Assembly: GCA_022592445.1 (NCBI GenBank)
Contig: JABYQR010000003.1
Location: 1 to 64,000 of the forward strand
Length of the DNA: 64,000 nt
From: Cytidiella melzeri
Taxonomy: Eukaryota > Basidiomycota > Agaricomycetes > Polyporales > Irpicaceae
Direction of reading: 5' to 3'
The notes under the pieces are model-generated. The model worked only from the letters and a program-made list of their open reading frames with translations. It ran no database searches and had not been told where the DNA came from. Below are positions 37,255 through 59,670 of this stretch, one piece after another. The translations under genes and the position numbers were made by a program. Positions within the stretch are counted from its first letter, which is position 1. Each line of letters starts with the position of its first letter.

Positions 37255-40200
37255 CTACCATAGCTCCTGCTCAAACCGGTCCAACACCGCATTGGCATCC
37301 TCAACGTCTTTCTGGGCTTTCTTTCTCATATAAAAAATCGGACAGTCCTTGCTCGAGCATAGAACGTCCTGTACAAAGTGTCGTGAGCAGCTGGTGAAGA
37401 CAAAGAAGGCCCAATGTCCCAACCTGATGAAGCGAGCCTTGACAGCGCTGACATTGCGTCCACAATCTTGAGAATCGAACCTGCATGTCTGACACCGAGC
37501 ACACCTGGTCCCAAGCCTCGTTAGCAGGGGCCTGCGTCTGGTATAGTGAGGGAAGAAATACCTGTTTCTGATATAGCTCGCCTATACGAGGTCGACAGTT
37601 GTTGCACACCGCGCCATCTACGTTCAAGGTCAAGACAACTGCTCATGATAAGATCATGCCAGCTCACCTTTCACGCTATTGTTCGGCTGCAAGTGCGTCT
37701 TGCACCCTAGACAAGTGGCCTTCTTCACTGCGAACTTCATGAGTCCACCGACTGTTGGCGTGGCGATTTGAATCGTGCGCGTGTGATCGCCAGATACTGC
37801 ACAGGGTATTAGCAAGCACAGGTCGTTTTCAAATGAACACGTACAGAGCGACGAAGCCTTTTCGCCAAGAATAGGCTCGAATATCCTCATTAACGGGTTT
37901 GACAGTTGATTTTCCAGATAGTATTTGGTGTCAATAGGAATGTTGTTCTCGAGCACGTAGATGGGGTCTTCGGACTTTTCGTATGCAGCAGCACCTGAGG
38001 AATTCATGTCGTTACAAGGCTAGGCAGAACAATTGAGAAGGCGCAAACCTTTCATGCCCTTGATGATAACGTATGCTACACGGTCTCCCAGTGCCGGCGC
38101 CGAGCCTGAAAGGAAATGAGGTTCATAAAGCTGATTTACATTAGCATCGATAGCAAGCGTACCAGCATCTCGTTGCTTCATACGCTCAGCTAGCTCTACG
38201 TGAGCTTGTTTCCCCGCATAATCTGCAAGCGATGGTACATCAATTAAGGCAGCGTTAGTGGTGTAATTAACCATGTTACCTGCTTTCGCCAATGCTTTCG
38301 TTATCACCAGTTGGGACATGTCTATCTTGTTCTGCAGAAGGTCTGAGATGGTTTGTTTCGCATACCTAATGGCCAAGTCAATCAGCATACCCTCTAGTGT
38401 GTGCAGGCGGACCTACTCTGTTGCATCGGGCACATTGCGGTCTATCAACAGTTTATGCAGACAAGTTGAAATAACGGTAGAGACGAGTCGACAATTATCT
38501 CGACGGACAGTCTGCGTGTCATCACAATGAGAATCACACCACGAGAGAGCACACACATATTCGGCACGCACCTCAATGCCCTTGGTGTCCATCTTGTCGT
38601 ACTGCTCTGGTCTTGTCCAGTACAAGCCAGCATACCGCTTCTTACTGATCAAAAGGTACGGCCAGTAGACTTTCTCAAACTCTAGCTTGATCGGCTTGAT
38701 AAACTTTGCGGTGACGAACTCCGCAGCTTGACTGCCTGTAATCAGATGTTCAGCCTTACAAAAGGAAGGTACCTCTAAGAAACGATTTCTCACCCATAGC
38801 CATGACGGCTGGGAGATCTGTCGGACCGAATTTGATCATAACGGAATCGGTGTCTCCATAAATGACCTCGGCATCATGCTCCTTTCCATTCGCTTTACTA
38901 AACTCAGCTTCGACTTCCTAATATTGTAACAGGAGGTTTAAGAGAAGCATGGTATGGGTGAGTTATACGATTACTTGCCTGCTTTGTCTTCTCGATCATT
39001 TGTCGGCCGTAGGCTGTTGTACTCGAAGAGATAGGCAGACAAGGCAGCTTGCCGATCGTAGCACCGGTGAAGCCGTATACGGAGTTTGCACTGATCTGCA
39101 AACATTGCGGACATTGGAGTTTGTGATGCCACTCTGGTTTAAATGTAGCAACGTACCTTCAACGCGAGTTGTCTTCCATCAAGTACGGCACGCTTGAACG
39201 GGTCGGTTTCCTTCTTCAAATCAGCCTTTGCTCGTTTACGAGCTCCAATGAGATCCTCTAGGATGGTCGGAAGTAGTCCTTTTCGTTTGTTGGATTTCAC
39301 GAAGAAGTCTAGCCGAGAGTCAGCTTGAGATATTCTAAGCCATTATCCCATTTCACCCACCGTTATTGGGTGTCTGGATATAGTCTTCATCCTTCGCAAG
39401 CCCTAAACGGTCGATAGTATTCTTGTCGACTAAAGTCGTGTAACACAGATTGTGAGCCATCATGATTGAGGGGTATAGCGAACTAAAATCCAGCGTGGCG
39501 ATAGGGACGTCGTAGTAACCCTTATGTGGTTCAATGACCGTGGCGCCTTCGTACTGTTCATCGGTACCTACAATCACATGAGTCTGGACAGCCTTCGCAG
39601 CTAGACCAGTCAGAATACTCACCCTCTCCTTTGAGAGCAGGAACGACGTATCCTTCGTCGTTTGCCTTACGGAATAGCTGGGAAAGTACCTTGATGGACT
39701 GGCCACGAGAGAGCAGATAGTTGAAAGGGACGCCCGTAACGCGAGCCATCTCAGTGTAATTGATAAAACACATCAGCTTATCCATCAATCTTTGAGGTAG
39801 ATAGGCATCCTGCAGCAGGACTTAGCCAAAGGACGCGATTGAATTTCGTGTCAGACTAACCTTCAAACAGTAGACCGCCAACCGTCGTCGAGACTCCGGA
39901 GTACCGTTCTGAAGTTCCGTAATCACGGAATGGTGTACGTCTTCTTTCTGCTCTCCCAGAAACTGCGCACAGACAGCATTGAGCGTATAGCTACGTAGCT
40001 TGTGCTCTCGCTGCATGTACTGCAGAATATCAATCTGCAGCCGGCCATCTAAGACAGTCTCTTTGCTGTCACGTTGACCAAACGCTTTCGAGGAGAAGTG
40101 TGTGTCCTTCGTCTCTGCCTTGACACCTATCCAGCACTTCGTCAATCAAGACGCCGTCCACAAATAAAAGTGTCCAGCATAGGGGTTAGTGGTAGAGACG

Positions 40201-41601
40201 CACCTTTCATTCGACCAAGGAGGGTAAAATTCTTCGTCTTGAGGGTGGCAGCACGGTCAAGAAGGTAGGGAAAATCGAAGTTGGAGATGTTGTAGCCGAT
40301 GATGACGTCCGGGTCCACTTTGTTGACGAAATCTTGCCACCCCTGCAGCATCTTGCTTTCATCTTGATATGACAGCACTTGCGATCCAACAATGTGGGCA
40401 CAAGTGTTCAATGTGAAGATATTACGGACGAATGGTTTAGTCTCGCCTTCACAGAAATTAGTCTGAAGATGAACACCTAGGCAGGGACGCACAAACCTTG
40501 GCGGGTGACCATGTTTGCGATTTGGATCACAGGATCCACTTTGGCTTCTGGAAAGATGCCTTTACGGCCGGCGCACTCGATATCGAAACTCAGTATGCGC
40601 AATGGCGCAATCTTCGACCAAGCTCCATCTGGAGGATGTGAGATGAACTGGTCCCACCGAACCTGGATTTCGAGCTGACAGTGCGACTTCTTGCCTTCCT
40701 CGAGTACGGTGTACTTGCCCTTGGGTACCTCTATCCAATTCATCCCCACCACGTTCGTGTCTATCATGAACCGCAAAGTGTAGGCGATATTGCTCTCAAA
40801 TGTCGCAACGCCATCTGCCTTGAACAAATCGTTGAAGTGGCATTCGCCCCTCTCGAAGAGACCTCGTATCTTCGGTAGACTCTTTTGATCCGCGACAGTA
40901 ACCTTGATAAAAGGAACCCAGTCGTCGCCGCGATAGCCCCAAAGACTCCTTTTCTGCTGAATATCGATTGCGCGGACGACGCCGCCAGAGTCCATCCTGT
41001 TCAAGTAGTCCTTGAGCGACGCACAGTCCTCGTTCATGAAGCCCCTGGGAGAAGCGACATAAAAATAAGGCAAGAATCCTGTGACATGCATCAAGACGCT
41101 ATTCCCGGCCTGCTAGAGAGGTTAGTTGCATCGCTTGGTCAGCTTGGAGAGACTTGCCTCGGTGACACCAAACATCCGCAGTGTAGGAGCACTACCTGAC
41201 TCTGTAGACTCTTCGACGTCAATCTGTTGGAATACTATGGTGGAAACGTTTGAGAACACGCGGCCAACGCGTGAACGGAGGGTGTACACACTGATTGCGT
41301 CCTTTTTCGCGTTTATTTGCGGTAACGGTGGCCTTGCCCAGCTATCAGCGCCTCCTTCTGCATCTACAAAACAACATGTAAGATTCAAGCCGTTTTCAAG
41401 TGTACTGTAGATACCTTTGCTTTCTGAAGCATCTTCCTTCAACCTGGCCAGAACATCTGCGAAAGAGGACTGTGCTGGGACCAGTGACGAAGGGAATGAG
41501 TTTGAGCCAGCGAGTTTTCTTCGCTTTGCAGCTGGCTCTAAGTGAAAGCTCTTCCTAGCTGCGTCTTGAGTGTTTTCAATGAATGAAAGAGGAGTCGGCA
41601 T
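37255..41601 (-). CDS. POL3: DNA polymerase delta catalytic subunit
   Basis: Replicative B-family polymerase with proofreading. It starts [19 protein letters not shown], with an NLS-like [11 protein letters not shown]. The N-terminal and exonuclease parts include [10 protein letters not shown] (Exo I), [18 protein letters not shown] (Exo II) and [12 protein letters not shown] (Exo III, across an intron). Polymerase motif A is [15 protein letters not shown] (about 39450-39500), motif B is [16 protein letters not shown] and motif C is [11 protein letters not shown] (about 38840-38865), followed by [15 protein letters not shown]. The C-terminal Cys motifs include [20 protein letters not shown] and a final CxxC-containing exon, ending LDRFEQELW at 37255. 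Roughly twenty exons. All catalytic residues seem present, so this is the functional gene; its partial copy lies at 55.8-58.2 kb in the opposite orientation. Confidence 0.97.
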
Positions 41602-41843: not shown

Positions 41844-43754
41844 ATGCTGGAAGAGTACGTCATCGTCTCCTGAGAGGCTGGTGTTGGCGAAGCTCAGCGG
41901 ATACTGGTAGTAGTGGCATCCATAGGCGGAGGACGTATGCCCGCAATGCTTTGATTTGCATTGCAGTGGCAGCAAATGCGTGAGTCTCAACCTTTCCTCT
42001 ATATTTCTGTTCTATAGACTTACTCTGTAAAGACTTTGCGCAGGTGGCGTATATAGCTTCCCTCTCATCTCACCTGCGCTTGCGGCTCTCCACTTTACAC
42101 AACCACAGATTACTACCATAGCCCTAGCGTAAGTAATAGAGCCATTTGACTCTCTCACCAACTTACTGCAGAGGCTACAGAGGCATGGTTGGGCAGTATC
42201 CGTTCGCAGCTTTGGTTGGCAAGGTCCTCGACGGTCACGGGCCTGGGGCGTGTTCGTTCATTGCCGGAGTGCTCTTCTCCTCCGGATTTGGCTTATTCTC
42301 GCGCGAAATCTCCAACGCCTCAGAGAGTGCCAGCATCCCTGATGCATGGGTATTTCGCAGGTGTTTTGTCTACTTTGGAATGATTGGCCTGGGTACTGTG
42401 TTCTCGTAAGTGCAACATTTATTACTTTTTATATCACTGTGCGAAGTCAAGGGCTCATCCCACGCAGATATTTTTCTGTGGTGTTTGCAGCCACTTCAAC
42501 ATTTCCTCGCTATAATGGTATTGCCTCTGGGACTAGCATGGCTCTTTTCGGCTCTTCCCCGCTTCTCTTAACCATGATTGCCACTCGCCATTTCAGCGCA
42601 GGAGAAGGAGCAATTGATGTGACTCATTTTCTCACATTCATGGCCATGCTCACGGCTGCCACGCATGTGTTCGGGACGGTCGCTCTTCTAGTCCAGCCAA
42701 ACAAACCGGTGGGACTACCGGAAGAGCCCGTGATCATCGTCACGGATGTCGGCGAAGAAAATTGCTCGCTTGCTCTTGAGGGTAGTTCACCCTCCGAAGA
42801 AGACAATGGCGAAGAATCAAGCGCGTTACTGACACAAATCAAGCGCGTAGCCGCAGGTACACAAACTTTTCCGGTGCCAGAACCTCAGCATGGATCTGTG
42901 TTGGACCTTTTACGGGATTGTCACTTCTGGGTTTTGGCCTTTGTCGCTACTGTTGTCTTTGGCTCAGTAAGTACACGTAATCACTTTAAGCACTTCTCGT
43001 ACTCAAACAACTATTCTCCCAGAGTGAAATGGTCATGGCCAACCTAGCATCGATATTCCTTTCTCTGCCGTCCCACGCAGATGTGAGAAACAACCCAACA
43101 ATCGCGACCCAAATTCAACTACTCGCCATCGCCAACACGACGTCCCGGCTCTTAGTCGGACCATTGTCAGACCTACTATCGCCTGTTGCTTCATACATGC
43201 GCTTGCACGCATCGCATCCAGAGCTACACCCAGCGGATACTCAACCAACGCCGGAATACGTTTACTCTTTCCCTCACAAGCAAATCATATCTCGTATAGC
43301 ATTCCTTGTAGCGTGTAATTCAATTCTCCTCGCAACCTTCTCTTTTGTGGACCTATTCGCCAGGTCAACCGAAACCCTGTGGGTGATGAGGTGCGCATCA
43401 AGATTTGCGTCAACTTACCCCACTAACGGACCTCATCCACATGCAGCATTGGCGTAGGCTTTGCATATGGCGGTACCTTCACTATCCTGTAGGTCTATCA
43501 ACCATTTTCGCGACCCCTTTAATACTAATTCAAACTCACCTAGGCCTGGCATCCTCGTCTCCATATGGGGTGCTCCTAATCTTGGTCGCAACTTTGGGAT
43601 TATATCTTACGCGCCATTCTTTGGTACATCGATGTTCTCCTACCTCTATGCGTTCATTGTAGAACAGCACTCCACTTTACCATCTGGCGAGGGTCATGGA
43701 TCGTGCGAAGGCGTACCCTGTTGGCAGTCGACGTTTACTGGAAGATCTCGGTGA
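41844..43754 (+). pseudogene. MFS transporter (Mch1-like), 5' part, interrupted by Ngaro insertion
   Basis: A 12-helix major-facilitator transporter of the nodulin-like/Mch1 type, probably for monocarboxylate-like substrates (family knowledge). Exons give ICIAVAANALCAGGVYSFPL, SPALAALHFTQPQITTIALA, YRGMVGQYPFAALVGKVLD and ACSFIAGVLFSSGFGLFSRE. They continue with a cytosolic acidic loop (EENCSLALEGSSPSEEDNG), ANTTSRLLVGPLSDL, SIGVGFAYGGTFTIL and ISYAPFFGTSMFSYLYAF. After CWQSTFT the frame runs into the retrotransposon and stops at 43754. No other damage is visible, so the gene was intact until the insertion. The remaining 24 codons lie at 51124-51197. The start codon (41844, via a very short intron) is provisional; the first secure exon sequence begins near 41900. 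Confidence 0.85.
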
Positions 43755-43891
43755 GGCGAGGAACGAGCAGATCCTAGAACAGGGTCTATGGGAAGCGTGG
43801 GACGGGCGTCTGAGGAAAGCCGCCGCTTTCCCATCTACCGCCACGTCCCCGCCAGTCGTTCGCTCTGGGTCTCTCGCTCCAATTTTTGCAC
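43739..43891 (+). repeat. Split direct repeat A1 (left end of Ngaro element)
   Basis: 153 bases from TGGAAGATCTCGG to TTTTTGCAC, identical by eye to A2. It marks the left terminus; the preceding base belongs to the MFS gene. Confidence 0.93.
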
Positions 43892-43917
43892 GCTATTTTC
43901 TTCGCTAGTTTTAAAAA

Positions 43918-45707
43918 ATGGCAGAACTGGTTAATCCTCATCTACAACTTCGCCCGAATTTTCGAGACCCAATCCTCCAGCCACTGGTTGCGCTAGGAGT
44001 CACCGCAGATAAAACAGCGGAACAGGTTATCGAGGACCTCGAGCGTAACTGGGACCAGCAACATGCCGAAGCAGTCGCGCTGTGGGACGCCAACCATCCA
44101 GAGAATGTAGCCGACCAGGCGAATCCCCCCAACCCTCCAGCGGTGGAACACGAGCAACCGCTCGGACCACCTCCGCAGGTCGCGCCACAGGGAGATATGC
44201 CGGCAGAGATGGAGGGAGAGTTAGGCAGCGTCGGGTCGCGAACAAGAGGATCGTCTCCAGCTATAGAGCCAGACGAGGACGGCGGGGTGCCGTTGCTCAA
44301 GATGGGAAAACTGGTGGTCGGGAAGAAGCTCGACGACGAGCTCTTGTTCGAGCCTAGCCAAAAGGTCATCAACGACCTAAAAAAGCTCCAGTACGTCTAC
44401 CTTCATCATTTTCTGGATACCAAACGCAAAGAGGCTTTCGAGCAACGAGCATCTGGGGTCGGCACGGCGTTCACGATCACCGCGGATGGCTCAGCCATAC
44501 AGACCACCCCCGACGACGACCCGGCCTACACCAAGTCCATTCTACGAGACGATCAGCTCAGTTGGGCCGACTTCGTGGCCGCTCAAACGACGTTGGTGCG
44601 GAAGATGTGGGACTGCGGGTACAGTAGGGAAACGGTAGACGCGTTGGGGCAATTCTTCGGTTCGCTGGATCGCCTTCGTGTTCATCGGGAGCCATTCGGC
44701 ACGAAAGCGGTGCAGTTGTACGCAGCATTGATGAGGCACCGTTGGCACGAGGAGATGGTGAAGAAGGAGCTATTCGACATTCGAGTGATCGACGAGGCAC
44801 ACATCGAAAGGATCAGGCGCAAACTGGAAGACGACGCCAGGCGTGCAGAGTGCGTCTCGAGTCACATCCACCCGTGTTACTCCTAACTGACCGCCCTTTC
44901 TTACCCTACTTATCACATCTTTTATTCGAATTGCCTTCGTCTACGTTGTGTATCGATGCGTCACCGATACTCCGTTTGCGCACGTCGTTTGGGAAATGCG
45001 CCCCATCGTTGCCGCGGGACTGGGATGTGCCTTCGATGTCGCCTCGTTCGGGAACATCGCCGCGAATGGCCAACCCCTTTCCCCCCCCCTTTCGTTCCAA
45101 CCGCGCGCTGTCGGCTTCTCGACCACCGGCACATCGCGTCGTCGTAAATTTGTTCCCGTCGCGTGACATGATGCGCGTGGGATCGTTACAACCGGATTGC
45201 TGATACCACCTGCGTACGACGGCTGGTTTTCTGCGCGGCAGGTTCAGCGAATGGCAGCGGACTATGGCAGCGTCAACGGCTCGAATGGGCAATCTCGTGG
45301 TCAACAACAACCGCGGTGGCCAGGCAAGAAAGCGAGCTCGATCGCCAGAGGATTCTCGCCAACCAAGCAAAGCGAAAGCAATGGCCGGGCTGGATGGATC
45401 CCCTCGAAGGGAGCGATCCTTTCGTTCCGTCACGTCGACGAACCCCATGTTATGCAATCTCTGTCTGTCCTTCCATACCGACGTCCGCCACTGCAACGCT
45501 GACACACGGCCTGATGGCAAACCAACACGATGCAGTCGCAATTCCGACGGACACCTCGTCGTCCGTTCTTCCGGTCGAGTATTGTGCACCGACTTCCAAC
45601 GTTACGGAAAATGCACCAGGTCAGGTACCAAGCACGGTCACGAATGTTCGGGCTGCGGCGACTCTTCCCATGGGGCCCGCGACTGTCCTCTGGTCCAGAA
45701 AATCTAG
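43918..45707 (+). CDS. Ngaro Gag with zinc knuckle, probably spliced
   Basis: The first open frame (43918-44886) starts MAELVNPHLQLRPNFRDP, has a Pro/Asn-rich acidic segment, and in its second half a helical Gag-like part (LSWADFVAAQTTLVRKMWDC; LYAALMRHRWHEEMVKKELF). A GTGCGT donor at 44850 and a GGCAG acceptor ending at 45241 would join ...DDARRAE to FSEWQRTMAAS in frame. This gives 465 residues and ends with a Cys/His nucleocapsid motif (FQRYGKCTRSGTKHGHECSG then CGDSSHGARDCPL), stop TAG at 45705-45707. Without splicing, the zinc-knuckle frame has no good start except ATG 45264. The intron is inferred from signals and phase only. Confidence 0.7.
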
Positions 45708-47664
45708 GGCTTTCACTCCGTTTCACCCCGCAGCCTGGCAAGAAGCTCTGGAGTCAGCAAACCTCCTTTCCACATACCCTACTGTCGTTTCAGGCCTGAG
45801 GTCGGGGTTCCGCGTCGGCATCCCTGTCATTCGTGTTACATACGTTCCTGCTAATTCACCATCTATTTTATCCCACATGTCTGAATTTAATTCCATCGTC
45901 AACCGTGAATTTCAGCGTCAGCGTTACATTGGCCCGTTCTCACAGCGTGAGGTAGAAAATATCATGGGCCCATTTCAGACGTCGCCCATGTCCCTTGTGC
46001 CAAAGCCGCATAAAATTAATGCTTTCCGACTGGTCCAGAACTACTCATTCCCCCGAACGCCGCAAGGCGAAACATGTTCTATAAATTCGTACATTAATTC
46101 CGACGACTACCCATGCACGTGGGGTACCTTTAATGCTTTTTCCCTTATGCTCAGCCAGCTCCCTATAGGATCGCAGGCAGCAGTCCGAGACGTCGCAGAG
46201 GCCTACCGCACAATCCCTCTACACCATTCACAATGGCCAGGGTCTGTAATCCGACTCCCAGGAGAAGATTGCTTTGCTGTGGATACGTCTGCATGCTTTG
46301 GAGAAGCAGCCAACTGCGGGGTGTTCGGATTGGTCGCAGACGCAGGGGCCGACATCATGCGCTCAAAAGGGATTGGTCCTATCGCAAAGTGGGTGGACGA
46401 CCACGTCTTCATCCGCATACAACGAGAACACATTACCTGGTACAACCAACAACGAGAGAGCTGGAAGCAGCGAATCCAAGAAGCTGGTGGTAGACACCAC
46501 ACGGGGGGTAGGATCTGGTTCGGAGGCGACGTTATGGCAGACGGACGAATAGAAGAGTTTATGGAGGATATGTCATATCCGCTACGGGATTTGTCAGAGT
46601 ATTCCGAAAGGTCCGCGAGCGACGCACCGTACACTTACAACCTCGAGGATGTAAGTCGAATTTCACAGCAACTCGGCTTTCCTTGGGAGAAATCAAAGGA
46701 TATCGATTTCAGCCCCGCGTTCCCATTCACAGGTTTCTGATGGGATCTGGAGCGCTACACGGTCTCTCTGACCGAGAGCAAGAGAACCAAGTATGGGAAG
46801 GCCATAGACGAGTGGCTCGCCAGGCCCACCCACACCCTGGAACAGGTACAAAAGCTATATGGTAAGCTTCTGCACGCCTGTTCAGCCCTCCCAGAAGGAC
46901 GAGCGTACCTCACAACCCTGGAGAAGATGCTCGGAATTTTCCGAGACGAGCCATTCAAACCGAGACACGCGCCTAAGGGAACCAAACCAGACTTACAATG
47001 GTGGGCGCTCGTGCTCTCGTCGTCCTCTACCATCCAACGCCAAATCCCGGGACCCATCATCATTCTCTCTCTCGACGCCTTTTCAGATGCAAGCTCCGGC
47101 GTGGGGATTGGCATCGTTCTCGATGGCCATTGGAGAGCGTGGCGACTCCGCCCAGGCTGGCAGAGTGAAGGAAGGGACATTGGTTGGGCAGAAGCGGTAG
47201 GTTTCGAAATGCTCATATACGCGATCATGCACCAGAATCCCTCACACGCACACTTACGCGTCTACGGCGACAACCAGGGCGTTGTGGAAGGGTGGAGAAA
47301 CGGTCGCAGTAGGAACACGCAAGTTAACGGGGTTTTCAAAAGGATTCACAGCTTCCTTCGAAATCGAACCACACAATTCCACGCGCAATATATCCGGAGC
47401 GCAAACAACCCAGCGGACGCACCGTCGAGAGGCCTCTACCCTCCTCGACACCTCCTTCTCCCACCCATCCTTCTACCGAGCGCCCTCGATCAGTTCATCT
47501 ACGACGCATCAGAGGACGACAGTCAACGTCCGTGGAACGGCTGCGCCAGCATACAGCCGGCGAAACGGGCAGCGAGAAATACGAAACAAGATGACCTCCT
47601 CAAAGAGCAAGCCATGCACTTCGACGCCGTACGCCACGGCTCTCGCTCAAGTGAAGAGATCTAG
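45316..47664 (+). pseudogene. Ngaro reverse transcriptase-RNase H, one in-frame TGA
   Basis: RT signs: FTPFHPAAWQEALESANLL, GPFQTSPMSLVPKPHKINAF, then AVRDVAEAYRTIPLHHSQW (motif A Asp), CFGEAANCGVFGL, and the catalytic IAKWVDDHVFIR (motif C in VDD form). Directly after FPFTGF comes TGA (46738-46740), then in the same frame WDLERYTVSLTESKRTKYGK, the normal RT-RNase H connection. RNase H follows: IIILSLDAFSDASSGVGIGI, GWAEAVGFEML, VYGDNQGVVEGW and RSANNPADAPSRGL, supplying the acidic residues, ending 47664. A Leu codon (TTA or TTG) changed to TGA is the simplest explanation; programmed readthrough is the alternative. The 5' end overlaps the Gag zinc-knuckle frame; the functional RT region begins near 45694, offset by one base from Gag. 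Confidence 0.85.
46738..46740 (+). other. TGA stop splitting the Ngaro pol frame
   Basis: A single stop between the RT and RNase H domains; both sides are in the same frame and open for more than 300 codons each. No stem-loop immediately downstream could be judged by eye. Confidence 0.85.
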
Positions 47665-48820
47665 GATGACTGCGGGACTGCAGTCTGAGGCCGTTCCGAG
47701 CTATGGGTCCACATCGTCTATCCTGCGCCCATCGTGTCGCGCAGCTGATCGCCTGCTTCGATGGAGACCGGCGCACGCAGCGCCCATTATGGAGCCATTA
47801 TCGGCGACAGATGCTGCTCGAATTTCGGAGGCCACTATGGGCAGTTGGTCCGATAACACTCGCGCTACATACGGGGCTGGTCTCCGCCTCTTCCACGAAA
47901 TATGTGACGTCGCGAAAATACCCGAGCACCAACGGATTCCAGCGAGCCAGGACCTTCTGGCGTTCTTCGTTACGCAGCTCGTGGGAGCTTACTCAGGCAG
48001 TGCGGCGAAGAATTACCTTGCGGGAATTCGAGCCTGGCATGTCATACACAGGTTCTCGTGGACCATCGACACTATCCAAATGAATGCGCTACTTCAGGCC
48101 GCAGCGGCGAGGGCCCCGGCAACATCGAAACAGGCGAAAAAGCAGCCGTACACCGTCAGCCTCCTCGAGGTGATATTCCAGCAGCTCGACAAATCAGTTC
48201 CGCTTGACGCGGCAGTGCTGGCAGCAGGCTCTTCCCTGTTTTACGGAGTGGGCAGGGCGGCGGAGCACACCGTTCCAAATTTGAAGGGTTTCGACCCGGA
48301 AAAGCACGTGCAGAGACGACACATCTCACACGCCACGGACAGGTGTCGAAACGAGGTAACTACTTTGTTTATCCCATGGACCAAGAGCGCGGGTGCCTCG
48401 GGCGAAACTCTTTTCTGGGCGAAACAAGACGGGATCACGGATCCAGTGTCCAACCTCGACAACCACTTACGCCTCAACGATCCACAGGACGACGAGCACC
48501 TTTTCGTGTACACCTTCGCGAAGGGCAGGAACATCGAGCGTCGGCCACTTACGAAGCAGGCTTTCCTCAGCAGGCTTCGAAGCGCGGCAAGGGCCGCCGG
48601 GGTCCAGAGTTTCCAAGGACACGCCTTCAGGGTGGGGGGAACACTCGAGTACTTACTCCGAGGCGTCCCCTTTGACGTGGTCAAATCCAAGGGTCGCTGG
48701 GCCGGCGATTCCTTCCAGTTGTACCTGCGGAAACATGCAGAAATCATGGCGCCGTACATGCAGGCTAACCCCGAAGCTCACGCACAATTCGTCCGTTTCA
48801 CGATGCCCGCTGTCCGTTAA
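47591..48820 (+). CDS. Ngaro tyrosine recombinase
   Basis: Integrates the circular DNA copy of the element. The ATG at 47591 lies 74 bases inside the RNase H frame, in another frame, as is common for DIRS-order elements. The N-terminal SAM-like domain reads TMGSWSDNTRATYGAGLRLF and FFVTQLVGAYSGSAAKNYLA. The catalytic part has FYGVGRAAEHTVPNLKG (first Arg), GHAFRVGGTLEYLLRGVPFD (HxxR) and SKGRWAGDSFQLYLRKH (nucleophile Tyr), ending at TAA 48818-48820. 409 residues and no visible damage, so this protein could be active in trans. Confidence 0.92.
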   Translation: MTSSKSKPCTSTPYATALAQVKRSRMTAGLQSEAVPSYGSTSSILRPSCRAADRLLRWRPAHAAPIMEPLSATDAARISEATMGSWSDNTRATYGAGLRLFHEICDVAKIPEHQRIPASQDLLAFFVTQLVGAYSGSAAKNYLAGIRAWHVIHRFSWTIDTIQMNALLQAAAARAPATSKQAKKQPYTVSLLEVIFQQLDKSVPLDAAVLAAGSSLFYGVGRAAEHTVPNLKGFDPEKHVQRRHISHATDRCRNEVTTLFIPWTKSAGASGETLFWAKQDGITDPVSNLDNHLRLNDPQDDEHLFVYTFAKGRNIERRPLTKQAFLSRLRSAARAAGVQSFQGHAFRVGGTLEYLLRGVPFDVVKSKGRWAGDSFQLYLRKHAEIMAPYMQANPEAHAQFVRFTMPAVR

Positions 48821-48909
48821 ATATACCACGTTTGCCAGGTGAGTTATCTTCCTAGTAGTGTGGGGATGGGCTCGCGCCAATGCGTCGAGAACTCCTACCT
48901 TGTTGGGAA

Positions 48910-49208
48910 TCGTCGCTCACCATAATCCCCTCAGGTTCTCGGTCGGGCAGGTCTCCTCGTACGTCTGCCGGCCCTTCGGGCCGTCTCCCTCATACTCAAC
49001 GCGCGTCAGCTCTAGTTTACCCGCTCCTTTCCTCACCCTCACTTCGCTACCTCCCGCTTCGTTACAATAGTTCCCCACATCTGATTCAAGTTCTCTGTTC
49101 GAACCTCCTGTATGCATCATCCTTAATTACACCGTGCGTTTTGCCTTACAGACATTGCAAGTTACTCTAAGGGACCCAAAGACAAACGGATCAGCTACCA
49201 CATAGATG
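48910..49208 (+). repeat. Split direct repeat B1 of Ngaro element
   Basis: 299 bases starting TCGTCGCTCACCATAATCCC and ending CCACATAGATG, identical by eye to B2. The last two bases (TG) overlap the first two of A2, forming the internal B1-A2 junction thought to template circle closure. Confidence 0.92.
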
Positions 49209-49359
49209 GAAGATCTCGGTGAGGCGAGGAACGAGCAGATCCTAGAACAGGGTCTATGGGAAGCGTGGGACGGGCGTCTGAGGAAAGCCGCCGCTTTCCC
49301 ATCTACCGCCACGTCCCCGCCAGTCGTTCGCTCTGGGTCTCTCGCTCCAATTTTTGCAC
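49207..49359 (+). repeat. Split direct repeat A2 of Ngaro element
   Basis: 153 bases, the internal copy of A1, directly after B1 with a two-base TG overlap. Confidence 0.92.
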
Positions 49360-49738
49360 CCACCCACCTTCCCCTCCTTCCCTCCGGAATTTCGCCTTGT
49401 ATTTAGGTGCGACCACCCACGGATAACCAGGAGCTTTCAGAATTTGCCAGATTCCTCCTTAGCCCCTGCTGTCCCTGAGCCGCGCTCGCGTATTTTACCT
49501 GCTGTTCATGATTCCCGCCACGCAGCCCTGACCTCATCTGCCGTTATCCCTTCTACATTTTCCTTCAGTCACCCACCGTTCCCTCCGCCAATGGACTAGC
49601 CTCTTTAGTTAAGCGTGGTCGTACCATTCCCAGCCACACCTTTCCTTGCCTCCCTTACCGGTATTGTTTTGGCTTAAATAGCATCCCATGCCTAGCACTT
49701 GAGTTGCATTTCTCTTCAGGCTCCCCATCGCGAGCCGT

Positions 49739-50581
49739 TTGCAGGTCCTGTTCCCCATGCCCTTCCCTGACAATAATACCCTCCGTCCTTTCTCCCCAGT
49801 TGACCCTGTTCTCCCATCTGCCGACCGGCTTGTTGAAGGCAGGGGACACCTCCCTGTGCCACTTCGTCATCGCCAACACCCTGCGAGGTGCGTTGAGCCA
49901 TGTGGATCATCCCCACCTGTAACGTTTACCCTCCCTTTCCAAACCTCTTCTGGCGAATCATCCGCATACTCGTTCGACAGTATCGAGCCTTCCGTCGTCA
50001 ACCGCAACCCGTCAGAATCCCTGTCCCCAACAGACCTCAGCACCGCCAACACCAGTAACGAGGTATCCATACCTCCTGGCACAAACGGCCCAGCAGAGAA
50101 CACGGTCCGCCCTTCCCAGCTCACCAGTGCCACCCTCTCACCGGCGGTGGGGCCTGAGCACATCATAGGCGCCATCCCACGTTCCACAGAAGGCCACCCT
50201 CTGGGTTTGCGGACATGGCTGGTCTACGAGATTCCAAACGCCCAGCGGGGCATTGGAACAGGGGACGTGGTGCGGATTCACAACCCGACGAAGCCCGCCG
50301 CTAAACTCTCTTACTTCATCCGCGATTTCTTCAGCATATTATCTGATCGAGTTCTGTTTTGGGCCACACCCGCACGTGACCACGCGCTGCCTCCCATCAT
50401 CCTGGTTGTCCGACCTGCGCACGCCAGACTGTCAGCACGCGAACGACTCATGGCCCGGGTGTGGCTCTACAGAAGGGGTTCATGCCTCCCCTACCGAGCA
50501 CTGTTCCCGGTCCCGGTGGACTCGGTTACGGTTAGACCTGCAACCCCCCCGCAGTCAGAACCAGCCTTACCCACCTCCTGA
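49739..50581 (+). CDS. Unassigned 280-codon ORF between A2 and B2
   Basis: An open frame of 280 codons within the 1465-base spacer between A2 and B2. The first half is Ser/Pro/Thr-rich; the second half has a more ordered look with LGLRTWLVYEIPNAQRGIGT, GDVVRIHNPTKPAAKLSYF, FFSILSDRVLFWATPAR and SARERLMARVWLYRRG. I recognise no domain. It is longer than expected by chance in this composition and could be an accessory Ngaro protein. It could also be host DNA carried inside the element, or a chance frame. The start codon is uncertain; the frame may begin after an intron. Confidence 0.4.
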   Translation: MQVLFPMPFPDNNTLRPFSPVDPVLPSADRLVEGRGHLPVPLRHRQHPARCVEPCGSSPPVTFTLPFQTSSGESSAYSFDSIEPSVVNRNPSESLSPTDLSTANTSNEVSIPPGTNGPAENTVRPSQLTSATLSPAVGPEHIIGAIPRSTEGHPLGLRTWLVYEIPNAQRGIGTGDVVRIHNPTKPAAKLSYFIRDFFSILSDRVLFWATPARDHALPPIILVVRPAHARLSARERLMARVWLYRRGSCLPYRALFPVPVDSVTVRPATPPQSEPALPTS

Positions 50582-50824
50582 GCGTCAGACAACCGCCATC
50601 CACCATTCTGACGCATTCGAACAAGCCATCTCGACTCCGCACTGACTGCGTAGTCCGCGCGGCTCGCAGATCTTTCGAACACACCGCTCTCGCGGCCTCC
50701 CGCCTCGTCGGTGGCACCGTTACCCTTCCATTCCTTTCATCAATTCCATTCCATTTCTTTCTTCATCCCTGGCGTCCGAGGAGTTTTAATTTTAGACCGC
50801 CTGCCGCGTTTTTCCCGCCCTCCC

Positions 50825-51123
50825 TCGTCGCTCACCATAATCCCCTCAGGTTCTCGGTCGGGCAGGTCTCCTCGTACGTCTGCCGGCCCTTCGGGCCGTC
50901 TCCCTCATACTCAACGCGCGTCAGCTCTAGTTTACCCGCTCCTTTCCTCACCCTCACTTCGCTACCTCCCGCTTCGTTACAATAGTTCCCCACATCTGAT
51001 TCAAGTTCTCTGTTCGAACCTCCTGTATGCATCATCCTTAATTACACCGTGCGTTTTGCCTTACAGACATTGCAAGTTACTCTAAGGGACCCAAAGACAA
51101 ACGGATCAGCTACCACATAGATG
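50825..51123 (+). repeat. Split direct repeat B2 (right end of Ngaro element)
   Basis: 299 bases identical by eye to B1, ending CCACATAGATG. The next base (51124) resumes the MFS reading frame. Confidence 0.93.
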
Positions 51124-54199: not shown

Positions 54200-55007
54200 T
54201 TGCGCCTGCTATGCTGGCTTGTGGATATATCCTTCTCGCTCGTAGCTGACGGACAGTGACTTACCGATGTATGTTTCTTACAGCACAGACTCAATGGTAT
54301 GACGGTGGCTGGTTTGCTTTACTGAAACTTGGAAGCAAGTCGCTCGTGGGACTGAGACAATACAGCAAATCTTCTGTCGGTTGACGCATGGCCCTGAGGC
54401 GCAGTAATGCAAACCTCCGTGGCTATACGAATCTTTACTGTGCGATTGAAACATGAATCGGGATTCGAGTTGGCCGACACGTCTAGGTTTACGAAGGCGT
54501 CAAGCGAGTTGGTAACATTCCTATGTTCAAAACGAACGCCAACACCAAAATGATGTACTTTTCCAATATCTCACTTGCACTCGCAAATTGTCCGGTCTGG
54601 CTATGAACGCGTTGCAGCCTATCAGTGAGTGCCAATGATTGAGACCATCAACACCCGAAACATACTCAGTGTTTCGTTAGACGTGGTGAAAGGCGTGTCA
54701 CAATTGTGTCACGCTTTGTAAACCATTTGTGTATGCCGTGACCATCATTCTCAGCACTCTTTATCATGCCAGCTTCTCTTGCGTTCCGAATAAATGCATA
54801 ACTGCAATCCTACAGTTGCAGTCTTGCAGAATTGCGTCTTGCAAGTGAGTTATCCAGTTGTTGTAACAGGTGTGACGGACTGAAACAGCCTCGTGAGCGC
54901 TTGAAATAGGGACCCATCATTTCACCTGATAAGGCAGCACTGGGTACGCTTTATAAACCTCTTGCAGTTGCGAGCTGCGCTCAAACGTTTGACTTTCGAC
55001 CGCCAGC
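54200..55007. other. Intergenic, ERG7 3' flank and chimera promoter
   Basis: No gene-like frame. A TTATAAA box at 54951-54957 lies 50 bases before the start codon of the chimeric gene and could be its TATA box, which would mean the gene has its own promoter. Confidence 0.45.
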
Positions 55008-58000
55008 ATGTCTGTGAGGAAGCCTTCAGCCAACCATACTCTTCCTGAATATCCCGAGTGGGTAGAGCCTCCTCGAACGGACGGCGACAGTAGCACTTGG
55101 CCTCAAGCCACTTCGCGCATTGTAACAGGAGGCGAGGTCAACTACTACAGGATTGTAGGCATTGACGAAAGCTTGTCCATTCTGTGGAGGAAGGCCGTTG
55201 GTCCAAAGGTAGCTGAGGCACTCGGCTTGCCATGTGGGTTTATGTTTTCCACGGTTGATATAACTCACTCAATTTCCGCGCAGTTGGCAAGCCATATGTT
55301 CTAAAATCCTTCCCAGCTGGATACCAGCTGTTTGACCATACCAAGGGCCCCGCTGACAATCCAAGACACGATCCGTATCTTTACGGTACGTATCATGCTC
55401 GCTATATACCCTTGCCGTGGTTGACTCGGACTCTGCTCTGGCTAGGTTCTACCAGAATTGGCAAGAAGAAGTTTCGGTCCGTCAACGAATTCATACCCCA
55501 CGCGATATGGCTGGCGAGCAGCGACCCCAACGCCGCTTGCCTTTGCAAGTACTGTAGCGGTATGAAAAGTCAGATGGATATCTCGCAGTCCTTCGGTCTC
55601 CCTGTCAAACGAAAAAGGGCGTCTGTTGCGACCCCTCCTCCGCGACCAAATCCAACCGCTCAGACCATCAAACCACTTGCCCTGAAACAAACGCTTGCTC
55701 AAGACAAGAGCGACGACGTTGGCCATCCTCCGATGGAAAGATACTCATTTTGGAAGAGCTCCAACTCGGAGCCAGCAGCAAAGCGAAGAAAACTCGCTCG
55801 CCCAGACCCTTCTATGGCTCAAGCGCGGTCCCCTTCTGCAGATACTTTTGTCAGGTCGAAGGGGGATGCTTCGGACAGCGAAGGTACCTGTAAACTACTC
55901 AAAACCAGTTTGACTCTGACATGGTGTCTCGTAGATGCCGAAACAGGCGCTGATAGCTGTGCAAGGCCACCGTTACCACAAATAAACGCGAAAAATGACA
56001 CAATCAGTATGTACATTTCACGCGTTGTGCACTGTTCTCTAATTATGTCATCATAGTATTCCAACAAATCGATGTCGCAGAGTCTACAGAGTCAAGCAGA
56101 GCTCCTACACTGCGGATGTTTGGTGTCACCGAGGCAAGTCTCTCCAAGCTTACTACGCGATGCAACTAACCTCTCTAACAGGCCGGGAATAGCGTCTTGA
56201 TGCATGTCACAGGATTCCTGCCTTACTTCTATGTCGCCGCTCCAAGAGGCTTCATGGACGAGGACTGCGCGTCACTAAAGAACTACCTGAACATGATGCG
56301 CTCCGGTAGCAGTGTCCGCACAGTCAGGTTACAGCAGAAAAGAATGTGGGGCTATCGTGGTGACGACTTGGTTCCATTCATCAAGATTACTGTCGCGGAT
56401 CAGAGGAGTCTGCTGGAGCTACGAGATTTCTTCGAGAGGGGCCGCTGCCGCTTCAAGAATCTGTTCAAGGCAGTGGGCGTTGCGACATTTGAGAGTAATA
56501 TCGCCTACACTTTGCGGTTCATGATAGACACGAACGTGGTGGGGATGAACTGGATAGAGGTACCCAAGGGCAAGTACACCGTACTCGAGGAAGGCAAGAA
56601 GTCGCGCTGCCAACTCGAAATCCAGGTTCGGTGGGACCAATTCATCTCACATCCTCCAGATGGAGCTTGGTCGAAGATTGCGCCATTGCGTGTATTGAGT
56701 TTCGATATCGAGTGCACCGTCCGTGGAGACTTACTCCCACAAGCCGACCATGATCCTGTGATCCAAATCGCCAACATGGTCACCCGCCAAGGTGGGTATG
56801 TCTGCCTCCTTTTTTCATTTTCCGACTAACTCCTCTGAAGGCGAGACTGAACCATTCGTCCGGAATATCTTTACGCTGAACACTTGTGCGCCTATCGTTG
56901 GGTCGCAAGTGCTGTCATACCAAGACGAAAGCGAAATGCTACAAGCATGGCAGAATTTCGTCAATCAAGTGGACCCGGACGTCATCATCGGCTACAACAT
57001 CTCAAATTTCGATCTCCCCTACCTTCTCAAACGCGCTGCAACCCTTAAAATGAAGAATTTCGCCCTCCTCGGTCGAATAAAAGGTATGTCTGGCATCAAT
57101 TTGGTTCCTTCTTAGAAGACGTCGTTATTGACGAAATGCATAGGTGTCAAGGCAGTGACGAAGGACACGCACTTTTCATCAGAAGCTCTCGGTCGTCGTA
57201 AAAGCAAGGAGACTGTCTTGGACGGCCGGCTGCAAATCGACATCATGCAATACATGCTGCGAGAACATAAGCTAAATAAGTACACGCTCAATGCTGTCTG
57301 TGCGCAGTTTCTGGTAGGAGAGAAGAAACAGGACGTACGCTTTACAGAAATTACGGGACTTCAAAATGGTACTCCGGAAACCCGACGACGGTTGGCGCTC
57401 TACTGTCTGCAGGCACGTTCGATACCATAACAGCTGCGCTCTTTCTCTAATCCCGTTGCAGGATGCATCTTTACCCCAAAAGTTGATGGACAAGCTGGAG
57501 TGCTTAATCAACTATACAGAGATGGCTCGGGTTACAGGCGTTCCTTTCAACTATCTGCTCTCTCGCGGCCAGTCCATTAAAGCCCTTTACCAACTATTTC
57601 GTAAAGCGAACGTCAAAGGATATGTCGTTCCTACTTCTAAAGGAGAGGGTGTGTACTTCCACTTCTGCAATTGCAAAGGTTGTCCCGACTCATGTACGCT
57701 GTAGGTAACGATGATATGTACTCCGCCACGCTAGATTTCAGCTCGCCGCACCTCCCGATCACGGTGGCTCACAATCTGTGTTACACGACTCTGGTCGACA
57801 AGTATACCATCGACCGCTTAGGTCTTGTGAAGGGTCAAGACTATATACAGACAACCAACAACGGTAGGTGCATTGGCATGATGGCGCAGACTAGCTCAAG
57901 GCTAACCCTTGGTAGACTTCGTTGTGAGATCCCACCGACGAAAAGGACTGGTCCCGACTATTCTGAAGGAGCTAATTGGAGCGCGCATACGAGCAAAGGC

Positions 58001-58206
58001 TGATCTGGAAAAGGAGACAGACCCGTCCAAGTGTGCCGTACTTGCTGCACGACAACTGGCTTTGGAGGTACGTCGCTGCACACGAGCTAGAGCGACATAA
58101 CTAAAGTCTATGTTTATGATCCTTGCAGGTCAGCGCAAACTCCGTGTACGGTTTCGCCGATGCTACGATCGGCAAGCTGCGGGCCAGTCTGCCAGCAGTC
58201 ATGTAA
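55008..58206 (+). CDS. Chimera: Clr2-like N-terminal domain fused to Pol delta exonuclease region
   Basis: Exons 1-3 encode MSVRKPSANHTLPEYPEWVE, SRIVTGGEVNYYRIVGIDES and LSILWRKAVGPKVAEALGLP. After splicing come GKPYVLKSFPAGYQLFDHTK, GPADNPRHDPYLYGSTRIGK and FRSVNEFIPHAIWLASSDPN, with the zinc-like CLCKYCSG. This fits the N-terminal domain of cryptic-loci-regulator Clr2-type fungal proteins. The same exon continues in frame into POL3-like sequence at [14 protein letters not shown], and introns at POL3 positions follow. Exo I FDIEC, Exo [19 protein letters not shown] and Exo III YCLQDASLPQKL are kept. Motif A is changed from [10 protein letters not shown] to DFSSPHLPIT, with a 48-base in-frame deletion just before. 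The protein ends soon after motif B ([17 protein letters not shown]) at TAA 58204-58206, so motif C and the C-terminal Cys motifs are missing. No stop or frameshift in about 13 exons. It cannot polymerise; a nuclease or dominant-negative/scaffold role is possible. Confidence 0.85.
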
Positions 58207-58590
58207 TCTGTTCGTGCTATACCTCTCCTGACATATCCACTCTTTTGACATCCGTCCGATTTGCACGCAGCTCTACATTGCTTGGTCAACCTTTCCTTCT
58301 ATTCATATTCGTATTTCAGTATCCGAGTGTTGACTATCTATTAAATTATGTATAACTTTATGTAACTTGCTATAAACTGTATCAACACGTTGTATAAGTA
58401 CCCGGCCAATGCAAGCCGCTTTCCAACACCGATTTGTTGATAAACTAGCAAACCTGACTAGGCGACGCGACACGAACATGTGTGAGCGCTTTTGCGTCTA
58501 TGCTCTATCGGTCGCTTGCAATGAGCCTCCTTGTATTCTTACGCTCATCTTGCCCGTATACTTTCATTCGCTCGTATCAGATCCGCTGGT
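58207..58590. other. Intergenic, SEC53 promoter
   Basis: 384 bases, AT-rich around 58320-58400 (ATTAAATTATGTATAACTTT), between the chimera and SEC53. POL3 similarity stops at the chimera's TAA; no later POL3 exon was found here. Confidence 0.5.
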
Positions 58591-59670
58591 ATGCCCTCGC
58601 AAGTGTTTGCAAATCGCCCTAGCAAGAAGCTGGTACTCTTCGATGTCGATGGCACGCTCACACTAGCTCGCCAGGTGAATATCTAGGTGAAGAGTTCGTG
58701 TTCGACGGTACTGAACGATTTTAACAGGGCGCGTCGCTGGAGATGTTAGAGCTGTTGCGGGCTCTTCGCAAAAAGCTCGTCATTGGAGTTGTAGGCGGGT
58801 CTGATTATGTCAAGGTTTCCGAGCAACTCTCAGTCCATGGTGCTAACGGTACGTTGGTCGAAGAACCATATGACTCTCCACACTGACTGTCCCTTAGCCC
58901 TCGAAGAATTTGACTATTTTTTCGCGGAAAATGGCCTGACGGCATACAAGCTAGGCAACCCCCTGCCTTCTCAGTCGTTCATCAAGTTCCTTGGTGAAGA
59001 GCGTTACAAACCCCTTGCCAACTTCATTCTGCACTACATCGCGGACTTGGACATCCCTATCAAGCGGTGTGTATTCGAGACACGGAGAGCGTCCTCTTTC
59101 CCTGATGCCAATGTTCCAGGGGAACGTTCATCGAGTTCCGCAACGGCATGATCAACGTTAGCCCAATTGGGAGGAACGCGACGTCAGTCATTGCTACCGG
59201 CTGTGAAGACGGATATATCTGACGGCTAACCTAGTATTGCTGAGCGGCTTGAGTTCCAGGAATACGACAAGGTCAGAATATGGTCAAAGTTGAGATCCTC
59301 AATACTGATAGTGTTGTGAACAGAAAACTGCCATTCGTGCTGCATTTGTCAAAGCCTTGCAGGAGAAGTTCCCGGATTACGGGCTCACGTTCTCCATTGG
59401 CGGCCAGATATCATTCGATGTCTTCCCCAATGGCTGGGACAAGACCTATTGTCTCCGCCATGTCGAGGACGAGCATTTCGAGGAGATTCACTTCTTCGGA
59501 GACAAGACGTACAAGGTGAGGGTATGTTCACACTTCTGTGAATTATGACTCACGTATGCGGACAGGGTGGCAACGATTATGAAATCTTTGCAGATCCTCG
59601 CACTGTTGGACACGCTGTCACATGTCCTGACGATACGATGAAGGCCTTGAGAGAGCTCTTCTCCTTATAA
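58591..59670 (+). CDS. SEC53: Phosphomannomutase
   Basis: Cytosolic HAD-fold enzyme converting mannose-6-phosphate to mannose-1-phosphate for GDP-mannose, needed for glycosylation and cell-wall mannans. The nucleophile motif [13 protein letters not shown] is in exon 1, then [20 protein letters not shown] with DYVKVSEQL. Further exons give [40 protein letters not shown] and [20 protein letters not shown]. The last ones are [40 protein letters not shown] and [19 protein letters not shown], ending at TAA 59668-59670. Seven or so exons; length about 250 residues, as usual. Confidence 0.96.

Follow-up and report, generated by a model that had tools for sequence, protein, structure and literature searches.

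The window analysed here comprises the first 64,000 nucleotides of a 459,348-bp contig (C223) in the genome assembly of Cytidiella melzeri (a wood-inhabiting member of the Irpicaceae; 49.7 Mb, 731 contigs). It contains a chimeric gene in which the N-terminal part of Clr2 (cryptic loci regulator 2, a SHREC subunit in fission yeast) is joined to the front part of POL3, the catalytic subunit of DNA polymerase delta (Pol delta). The gene is a single open frame of 870 amino acids (aa) in 12 exons (Table 1), one fewer than the approximate count of 13 in the original prediction, which a model had made from the letters of this stretch. Nine of the 11 introns are GT-AG and two GC-AG, and the frame is unbroken across the Clr2/POL3 junction inside exon 3. 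Pfam detected Clr2_transil (PF16761) at aa 80-146 (E 4.2e-22, 79.2 bits against a cut-off of 27), DNA_pol_B_exo1 at aa 406-641 (E 1.6e-66) and a partial DNA_pol_B at aa 706-864 (E 4.8e-28). The domains and the continuous frame bear out the earlier claim that one exon runs from a Clr2-like domain into POL3-like sequence; a 10-residue POL3-type motif in this exon equals POL3 residues 22-31, close to the start of the POL3 homology.

POL3/POLD1 is the parent of aa 218-863, and intron positions and exonuclease motifs are shared. As had been predicted, Exo I (FDIEC, 479-483), Exo II (NISNFDLPYL, 561-570) and Exo III (YCLQD, 676-680) are intact; the catalytic residues D480, E482, D566, Y676 and D680 are present and align with identical residues of yeast Pol delta, whose chain 3iay_A was matched with E 3.6e-188. 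This is the residue set of a B-family DEDDy-type 3'-5' exonuclease. Exonuclease domains of B-family polymerases are able to act alone, as T4 polymerase fragments do. Unlike POL3, the chimera carries a Clr2 domain at its N-terminus, has only a minor part of the polymerase domain and lacks the zinc-finger C-terminus; zf-C4pol, at 981-1056 in POL3 (P0002), was not found in it by Pfam. Motif C lies beyond the truncation point, so its reported absence holds, whereas motif A, described as destroyed, is damaged: it reads DFSSPHLPI, with the aspartate kept and LYPS lost. Upstream of it we confirmed the 48-nt in-frame deletion, which removes 16 residues. An AlphaFold2 model of the deposited protein P0001 had a mean pLDDT (predicted local distance difference test) of 56.6, with values below 50 in over half of the exonuclease domain, where the POL3 control was equally poor (mean 48.3); both used structure alignments of the same 45 of 120 proteins. 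Foldseek ranked yeast Pol delta first for the chimera model and added nothing beyond the sequence match.

Clr2 is the parent of aa 1-201, and its Clr2_transil domain is retained with the silencing motifs C2SM1 and C2SM2. These are defined in fission yeast Clr2 by L133, P137, Y140 and L142 (C2SM1) and by R170, F175, H178 and L182 (C2SM2); glycine was substituted for six of these residues in experiments described under a heading on the alleviation of silencing, and one of the mutant proteins, L142G, was undetectable (PMC3903592). When correspondence was established by aligning the Clr2 parent to 5ikj_A, all eight residues were found at matching places in the chimera, as L, P, Y and L in VLKSFPAGYQL and as R, F, H and L in FRSVNEFIPHAIWL. 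The chimera differs from Clr2 in lacking the C-terminal Clr2 domain (PF10383), which Pfam found in the parent (P0121) and not in the fusion, and which is equated with C2SM3 by the source of the motif definitions (PMC3903592). A second paper concluded that chromatin targeting by Clr2 does not depend on H3K9me binding by Chp2 (PMC6093649).

Both parents lie on the chimera's own contig, POL3 about 13 kb and Clr2 about 179 kb away. By blastn the gene was 83% identical to Clr2 over 54995-55646 (652 bp) and 82% over 55659-55720, and 79% identical to POL3 over 55752-58180 (about 2.5 kb), from where homology could be extended to 58193; both matches exceed chance. At the protein level the identity with Cytidiella POL3 was 79.5% (644 aligned codons). 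POL3 exons 1-10 were mapped in this analysis and the remainder taken from the deposited protein and the list of open reading frames (ORFs). All nine POL3-derived introns are retained at POL3 positions, as are both Clr2-derived introns, and Clr2 exons 1 and 2 match the parent in length (226 and 102 nt). Because introns of both parents persist at parental positions, the chimera arose by duplication at the DNA level, as had been argued for its POL3 part, with the Clr2 piece placed inside exon 1 of the POL3 copy. A processed retrogene or retrocopy is rejected by the same introns.

The start of the POL3 duplicate can be followed upstream of the Clr2 DNA. A gapped alignment of this region to the POL3 5' flank scored 53.5 against a shuffle maximum of 26.5, and an ungapped stretch (54697-54786 against POL3 41670-41581) was identical at 65 of 90 positions and spans the POL3 start codon region. 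In exon 1 of the duplicate, a 965-bp block (54787-55751) containing the Clr2 DNA replaces 25 bp of POL3. An upstream ORF of 11 codons now begins at the former POL3 start codon (54766) and terminates ahead of the Clr2 start; the interval from 54601 to 55008 has four further ATGs, each with a short frame. The 208 bp that separate the POL3-derived flank from the Clr2-derived segment gave no alignment above the shuffle maximum to the 5' flank of either parent, and alignment against shuffles found no match between the 3' flank of the chimera and that of POL3 or Clr2. ACGCGT boxes upstream of POL3 and the chimera were considered as a signal and rejected, the window holding 17 against a random expectation of about 16.

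Besides the locus itself and the two parents, a DNA search with 54500-58500 returned 97 bp of another contig and no further copies. The 97-bp stretch, 58380-58476, lies 3' of the chimera and is 94% identical to C628:3566-3662. It was the sole repeat from this search and does not reach the fusion, so that a cursory check gave no sign of transposon capture. Family counts in the assembly, which are lower bounds, were three Clr2_transil matches at two loci (the chimera and the Clr2 parent) and eight exonuclease-family matches at five loci; two of these five, POL3 and the chimera, belong to this contig. The deposited Clr2 parent reads through a 60-nt in-frame intron 2 (C223:233530-233471). Since the insert is missing from all eight other Clr2 homologues whose site could be found (the pattern missed it in P0128), we favour the spliced reading.

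In protein trees built from 15 POL3 and 10 Clr2 proteins that we chose, the POL3 half was sister to Cytidiella POL3 (support 98) and the Clr2 half to Cytidiella Clr2 (97), apart from Irpex. Synonymous divergence (dS) from the parents by the NG86 method was 0.474 (0.34-0.66) for Clr2 and 0.496 (0.40-0.61) for POL3 outside a tract of low divergence; maximum likelihood (ML) gave 0.464 for the Clr2 part and 0.391 for the POL3 part including the tract. The two halves are thus about equally distant from their parents at silent sites, and both branch off later than the split from Irpex. Within the tract (aa 398-487) only seven third-position differences occur in 90 codons (permutation p 0.00025), and the NG86 dS is 0.157 against 0.496 elsewhere; it is probably the product of gene conversion between the inverted copies, chimera and POL3. 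Irpex lacteus has two Clr2-like proteins (P0122 and P0124), close sisters in the tree, which may be paralogues or haplotypes.

Table 1. Coordinates of the chimeric gene, its parts and its parents (window positions unless a contig is named)
Feature	Position	Strand	Remark
Chimeric gene	55008..58206	+	ATG 55008 to TAA 58204-58206
Exons 1-6	55008-55233, 55284-55385, 55446-55883, 55935-56006, 56057-56133, 56182-56791	+	
Exons 7-12	56841-57083, 57144-57412, 57462-57648, 57705-57863, 57916-58067, 58129-58206	+	
Clr2-derived segment	54995..55720	+	source C223:233921-233127 (-)
POL3-derived segment	55752..58193	+	parent 41555-39034 (-)
Fusion exon 3	55446..55883	+	Clr2-derived up to 55720, 31-nt junction, POL3-derived from 55752
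Clr2_transil domain	55295..55555	+	Pfam; split by intron 2
Silencing motifs	C2SM1 55298-55330, C2SM2 55472-55513	+	motif definitions from PMC3903592
PVKRKRA	55601-55621	+	in fusion exon 3
10-residue POL3-type motif	55769-55798	+	in fusion exon 3
Tract of low silent divergence from POL3	56458..56727	+	aa 398-487, 90 codons
Exonuclease domain	56482..57298	+	Exo I 56701-56715, Exo II 56996-57025
Exo III	57401-57464	+	downstream of the exonuclease domain; divided by intron 8
Intron 8	57413..57461	+	GC donor GCACGT; POL3 counterpart GTTAGT
Polymerase remnant	57540..58185	+	damaged motif A, 48-nt deletion, ends after NSVYGF; stop TAA 58204-58206
Copy of POL3 5' flank and start region	54537..54786	+	gapped alignment to 41889-41581
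Stretch between POL3-derived flank and Clr2-derived segment	54787..54994	+	208 bp; TATAAA 54952-54957, 50 nt ahead of the ATG
Parent POL3	37255..41601	-	P0002, 1078 aa; catalytic subunit of Pol delta at full length
Parent Clr2	C223:233908-231402	-	deposited as P0121, with PF16761 and PF10383

Retention as a coding gene was assessed against neutral simulations that started from the extant parents under a simple transition-biased model. The original prediction had noted that the copy shows no decay by stops, and we likewise found no premature stop: the 845 aligned codons contain none, where 13.4 were expected at a distance K of 0.20 and 8.4 at the intron-based K of 0.113 (P(0) = 0.0025). By part, the simulations gave 10.0 for POL3 and 3.4 for Clr2, with zero observed in each (P 0.03 for Clr2 alone). 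Exons 4-11 differ in length from those of POL3 by only -3, +3 and -48 nt, whereas five of the nine POL3-derived introns are altered in length, none by a multiple of three. Splice-border bases differ from the parents at one of 44 positions (GT to GC in intron 8), against 5.0-8.8 expected at K of 0.113-0.2 (P 0.04-0.001).

Selection on the protein was estimated as the pairwise ML ratio of nonsynonymous to synonymous rates (omega, dN/dS; our own GY94-type code, F3x4), for which at least 0.5 is expected in a copy neutral since duplication. Omega was 0.21 in the exonuclease (twice the log-likelihood difference, 2ΔlnL, 13.7 against 0.5), which upholds the earlier suggestion of a retained protein; it was 0.315 in the whole POL3 part (2ΔlnL 12.8), 0.294 in the Clr2 part (5.9) and 0.237 in aa 642-705 (3.7). 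Scored against profiles built from other species, Clr2_transil kept 99% of the parental score, aa 1-148 94%, aa 284-405 (the Pol delta N-terminal domain) 88%, the exonuclease 89% (88% outside the conversion tract), aa 642-705 74% and the polymerase remnant 73%. In each of seven overlapping regions the observed score was reached in none of 200 neutral simulations. Sites invariant in the families were altered at 1 of 49 positions in the Clr2 part (19.1 expected), 6 of 79 in the exonuclease (27.5), 7 of 36 in aa 642-705 (14.8) and 16 of 72 in the remnant (25.4); exonuclease and remnant differ in this respect (Fisher p 0.019, or 0.029 outside the tract). Constraint is therefore graded, the Clr2 domain being best kept, followed by the exonuclease and the Pol delta N-terminal domain, with a much more relaxed polymerase remnant. 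A pseudogene neutral since the duplication is rejected by the frame, the in-frame indels, omega, the profile scores and the kept splice borders, and we are fairly confident that the chimera is a retained coding fusion.

These features can be assembled into a working model. DNA-level duplication placed a copy of POL3, cut within the polymerase domain but including part of the 5' flank, at a distance of about 13 kb from its source, and duplicated Clr2 exons 1-2 with the start of exon 3 came to be in frame in the first exon of that copy. Once transcribed, the gene would yield an 870-aa, probably nuclear protein made up of the Clr2 silencing domain, a basic linker, the Pol delta N-terminal domain, the 3'-5' exonuclease and a dead polymerase stump. 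The Clr2 domain would bind Clr2's own targets, either partners in the silencing complex or silent chromatin, and the exonuclease, if active when freed from the polymerase, would trim or hold 3' ends at silencing sites. Because the Exo residues and the Clr2 silencing residues are both intact, the product can be read as a targeting module of the Clr2 type to which a Pol delta exonuclease is attached. Taken loosely, the whole statement, that a young lineage-specific chimera is kept as a protein-coding gene and serves as an exonuclease steered by its Clr2 domain, seems to us evenly poised. The Clr2-steered exonuclease as such is more tentative, and falls below an even chance. The specific version, in which a free-standing Pol delta proofreading exonuclease would be brought to silent chromatin to edit or degrade 3' ends at heterochromatin, is rather doubtful.

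Several observations weigh against this model. Conservation was scored on 117 of the 119 proteins P0002-P0120 (length 990-1110), using only columns with at least 80 residues. Over the POL3 part as a whole, changes assigned to the chimera branch were blind to it: they affected 30 of the 195 invariant sites, 17 of the 99 sites conserved at 97-99.9%, 24 of 130 at 80-97% and 31 of 219 below 80%. Raw differences between chimera and POL3 rose weakly across the same classes (30/195, 17/99, 27/130 and 59/219); for comparison, Cytidiella and Irpex POL3 differ at 0, 0, 9 and 60 of these sites. The branch is also long, 0.316 against 0.022 for POL3 (14-fold), and 0.268 against 0.048 in the Clr2 half. Omega on the chimera branch, calculated with a silent clock that by assumption divides dS evenly between the branches, was about 0.59 for the POL3 part, 0.35 for the exonuclease, 0.58 for the remnant and 0.50 for the Clr2 part. 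Pairwise omega was indistinguishable from 1 in aa 215-283 (0.754), and in aa 284-405 (0.367) and the remnant (0.326) it was not clearly below 0.5 (2ΔlnL 1.0 and 2.9). Four invariant residues just past Exo I are altered (A484T, G485V, G488D and F490L), and these loop changes may alter or weaken activity. Intron 8 has a GC donor where POL3 has GT and separates the Exo III residues Gln679 and Asp680; its retention would lead to a stop and the loss of Asp680. The deposited protein P0001 (722 aa), which corresponds to residues 149-870 and includes the splice at this donor, starts at Met149 and omits the Clr2 half. Finally, we found no orthologue of the chimera among the best 120 of 1417 whole-chimera matches and the 26 matches to residues 1-217. 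Given this fast evolution and blindness to Pol delta conservation, the chimera is not another Pol delta held to the constraints of that enzyme, but a protein that has been retained and is either relaxed or put to a new purpose.

What has been retained could be the Clr2 domain. The protein would then be a shortened Clr2, a partial subunit lacking the C-terminal Clr2 domain that competes with full-length Clr2 in the silencing complex or modulates it, and the Pol delta part would be a tolerated tail that perhaps binds DNA. This agrees with the Clr2 domain being best kept (1 of 49 invariant sites altered, 99% of the profile score) and with C2SM1 and C2SM2 being intact while the C-terminal domain bearing C2SM3 is lost. 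However, the exonuclease and the Pol delta N-terminal domain, with 88-89% of their scores, surpassed all 200 neutral simulations, and omega is lower in the exonuclease (0.21) than in the Clr2 part (0.29). We consider this alternative unlikely. A little less probable again is a duplicate that was long functional and then died recently, or that drifts under very weak selection, with no present function. The fast chimera branch fits such a course, as do the failure of changes to avoid sites conserved in POL3 (16 of 72 invariant sites in the remnant) and a remnant omega compatible with 0.5 (2ΔlnL 2.9). A neutral phase of 0.03 substitutions per site out of about 0.2, roughly the last 15% of the gene's life, would leave it without a stop with P 0.085, and one of 0.05 with P 0.03. 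Neutrality over the whole branch is opposed by the 845 codons without a stop, the in-frame indels, GT/GC-AG borders at all 11 introns and the constraint on Clr2 domain and exonuclease.

If the locus held two transcription units, or if the start lay within exon 3, the product would be an exonuclease-only protein lacking the Clr2 domain, as in the deposited 722-aa model that begins at Met149. Yet this methionine is a lysine in the parent Clr2, the frame is continuous through the junction, and the Clr2 exons have kept their frame and two introns with a single one of 49 invariant sites altered, which points to their translation; we regard this version as improbable. As a decoy, the protein would bind DNA ends or replication partners instead of POL3. 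It does keep the Pol delta N-terminal and exonuclease domains, but it has lost motif C, the greater part of the polymerase domain and the zinc-finger region past the truncation (zf-C4pol, 981-1056 of POL3), and the Pol delta C-terminus binds the B subunit; we judge this proposal very improbable. The original interpretation is partly supported; the best-kept Clr2 half, the relaxed remnant, the fast evolution with its blindness to most of Pol delta's conservation, and the copied 5' flank had not been seen in it.

The interest of the locus rests on an intact, constrained and so far species-restricted fusion of two conserved genes. P0001 was the only protein common to the 120 listed of 1417 whole-chimera matches and the 26 matches to residues 1-217, and unlisted matches, or unsequenced or badly modelled genomes, may still hold the fusion; the other listed whole-chimera matches all carry both polymerase domains and the other 25 matches to residues 1-217 all carry Clr2_transil. 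A literature search on Pol delta, chimeric genes, paralogues and exonuclease-only forms found nothing on a Clr2-Pol delta fusion among the papers listed. No paper combined Cytidiella melzeri with its genome, and the Cytidiella papers, judged by their titles, were taxonomic. With both parents on one contig, the gene is a datable natural experiment on which parts of a polymerase and of a silencing factor can persist once the remainder is gone. Should the protein be produced, it would be a test of whether a Pol delta exonuclease functions in the cell in the absence of its polymerase, and of whether the Clr2 N-terminus is a targeting module by itself. The exonuclease, if indeed delivered to silent chromatin, would be a new kind of enzyme created by exon-level fusion within one fungal lineage. 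The locus also shows that the better conserved half of the gene is missing from the deposited annotation.

Like the chimeric genes made from duplicated pieces of two genes in the literature on new genes, the chimera consists of pieces joined in frame and retained; here, unlike in a retrogene, the introns of both parents are kept, and a silencing factor has been combined with a replicative polymerase. Another relative of a DNA polymerase that has been put to other use without polymerase function is F12 of chordopoxviruses, reported as an exapted B-family DNA polymerase; it differs in being viral and, by the title, an inactivated polymerase (PMC4304020). F12 is not known to carry a Clr2 part.

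The surroundings of the gene contain further features. Directly downstream is a phosphomannomutase (PMM) gene (58795-59545), two ORFs of which match PMM. In Blastosporella zonata the N-terminus of the deposited Pol delta (P0048) bears a PMM domain, which may mean that PMM and POL3 are old neighbours or that the P0048 model merges two genes. If they are old neighbours, the chimera could lie near the ancestral place of POL3. Between POL3 and the chimera is a probably recent retrotransposon (43739-51123), with split direct repeats around long ORFs: 43739-43891 is identical to 49207-49359 (153 bp) and 48910-49208 to 50825-51123 (299 bp). None of the three ORFs scanned in this element had a Pfam match. 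Its layout resembles that of a DIRS/Ngaro-type tyrosine-recombinase element. At the start of the window, 1-139 and 622-760 form an inverted repeat that is 84% identical over 140 bp.

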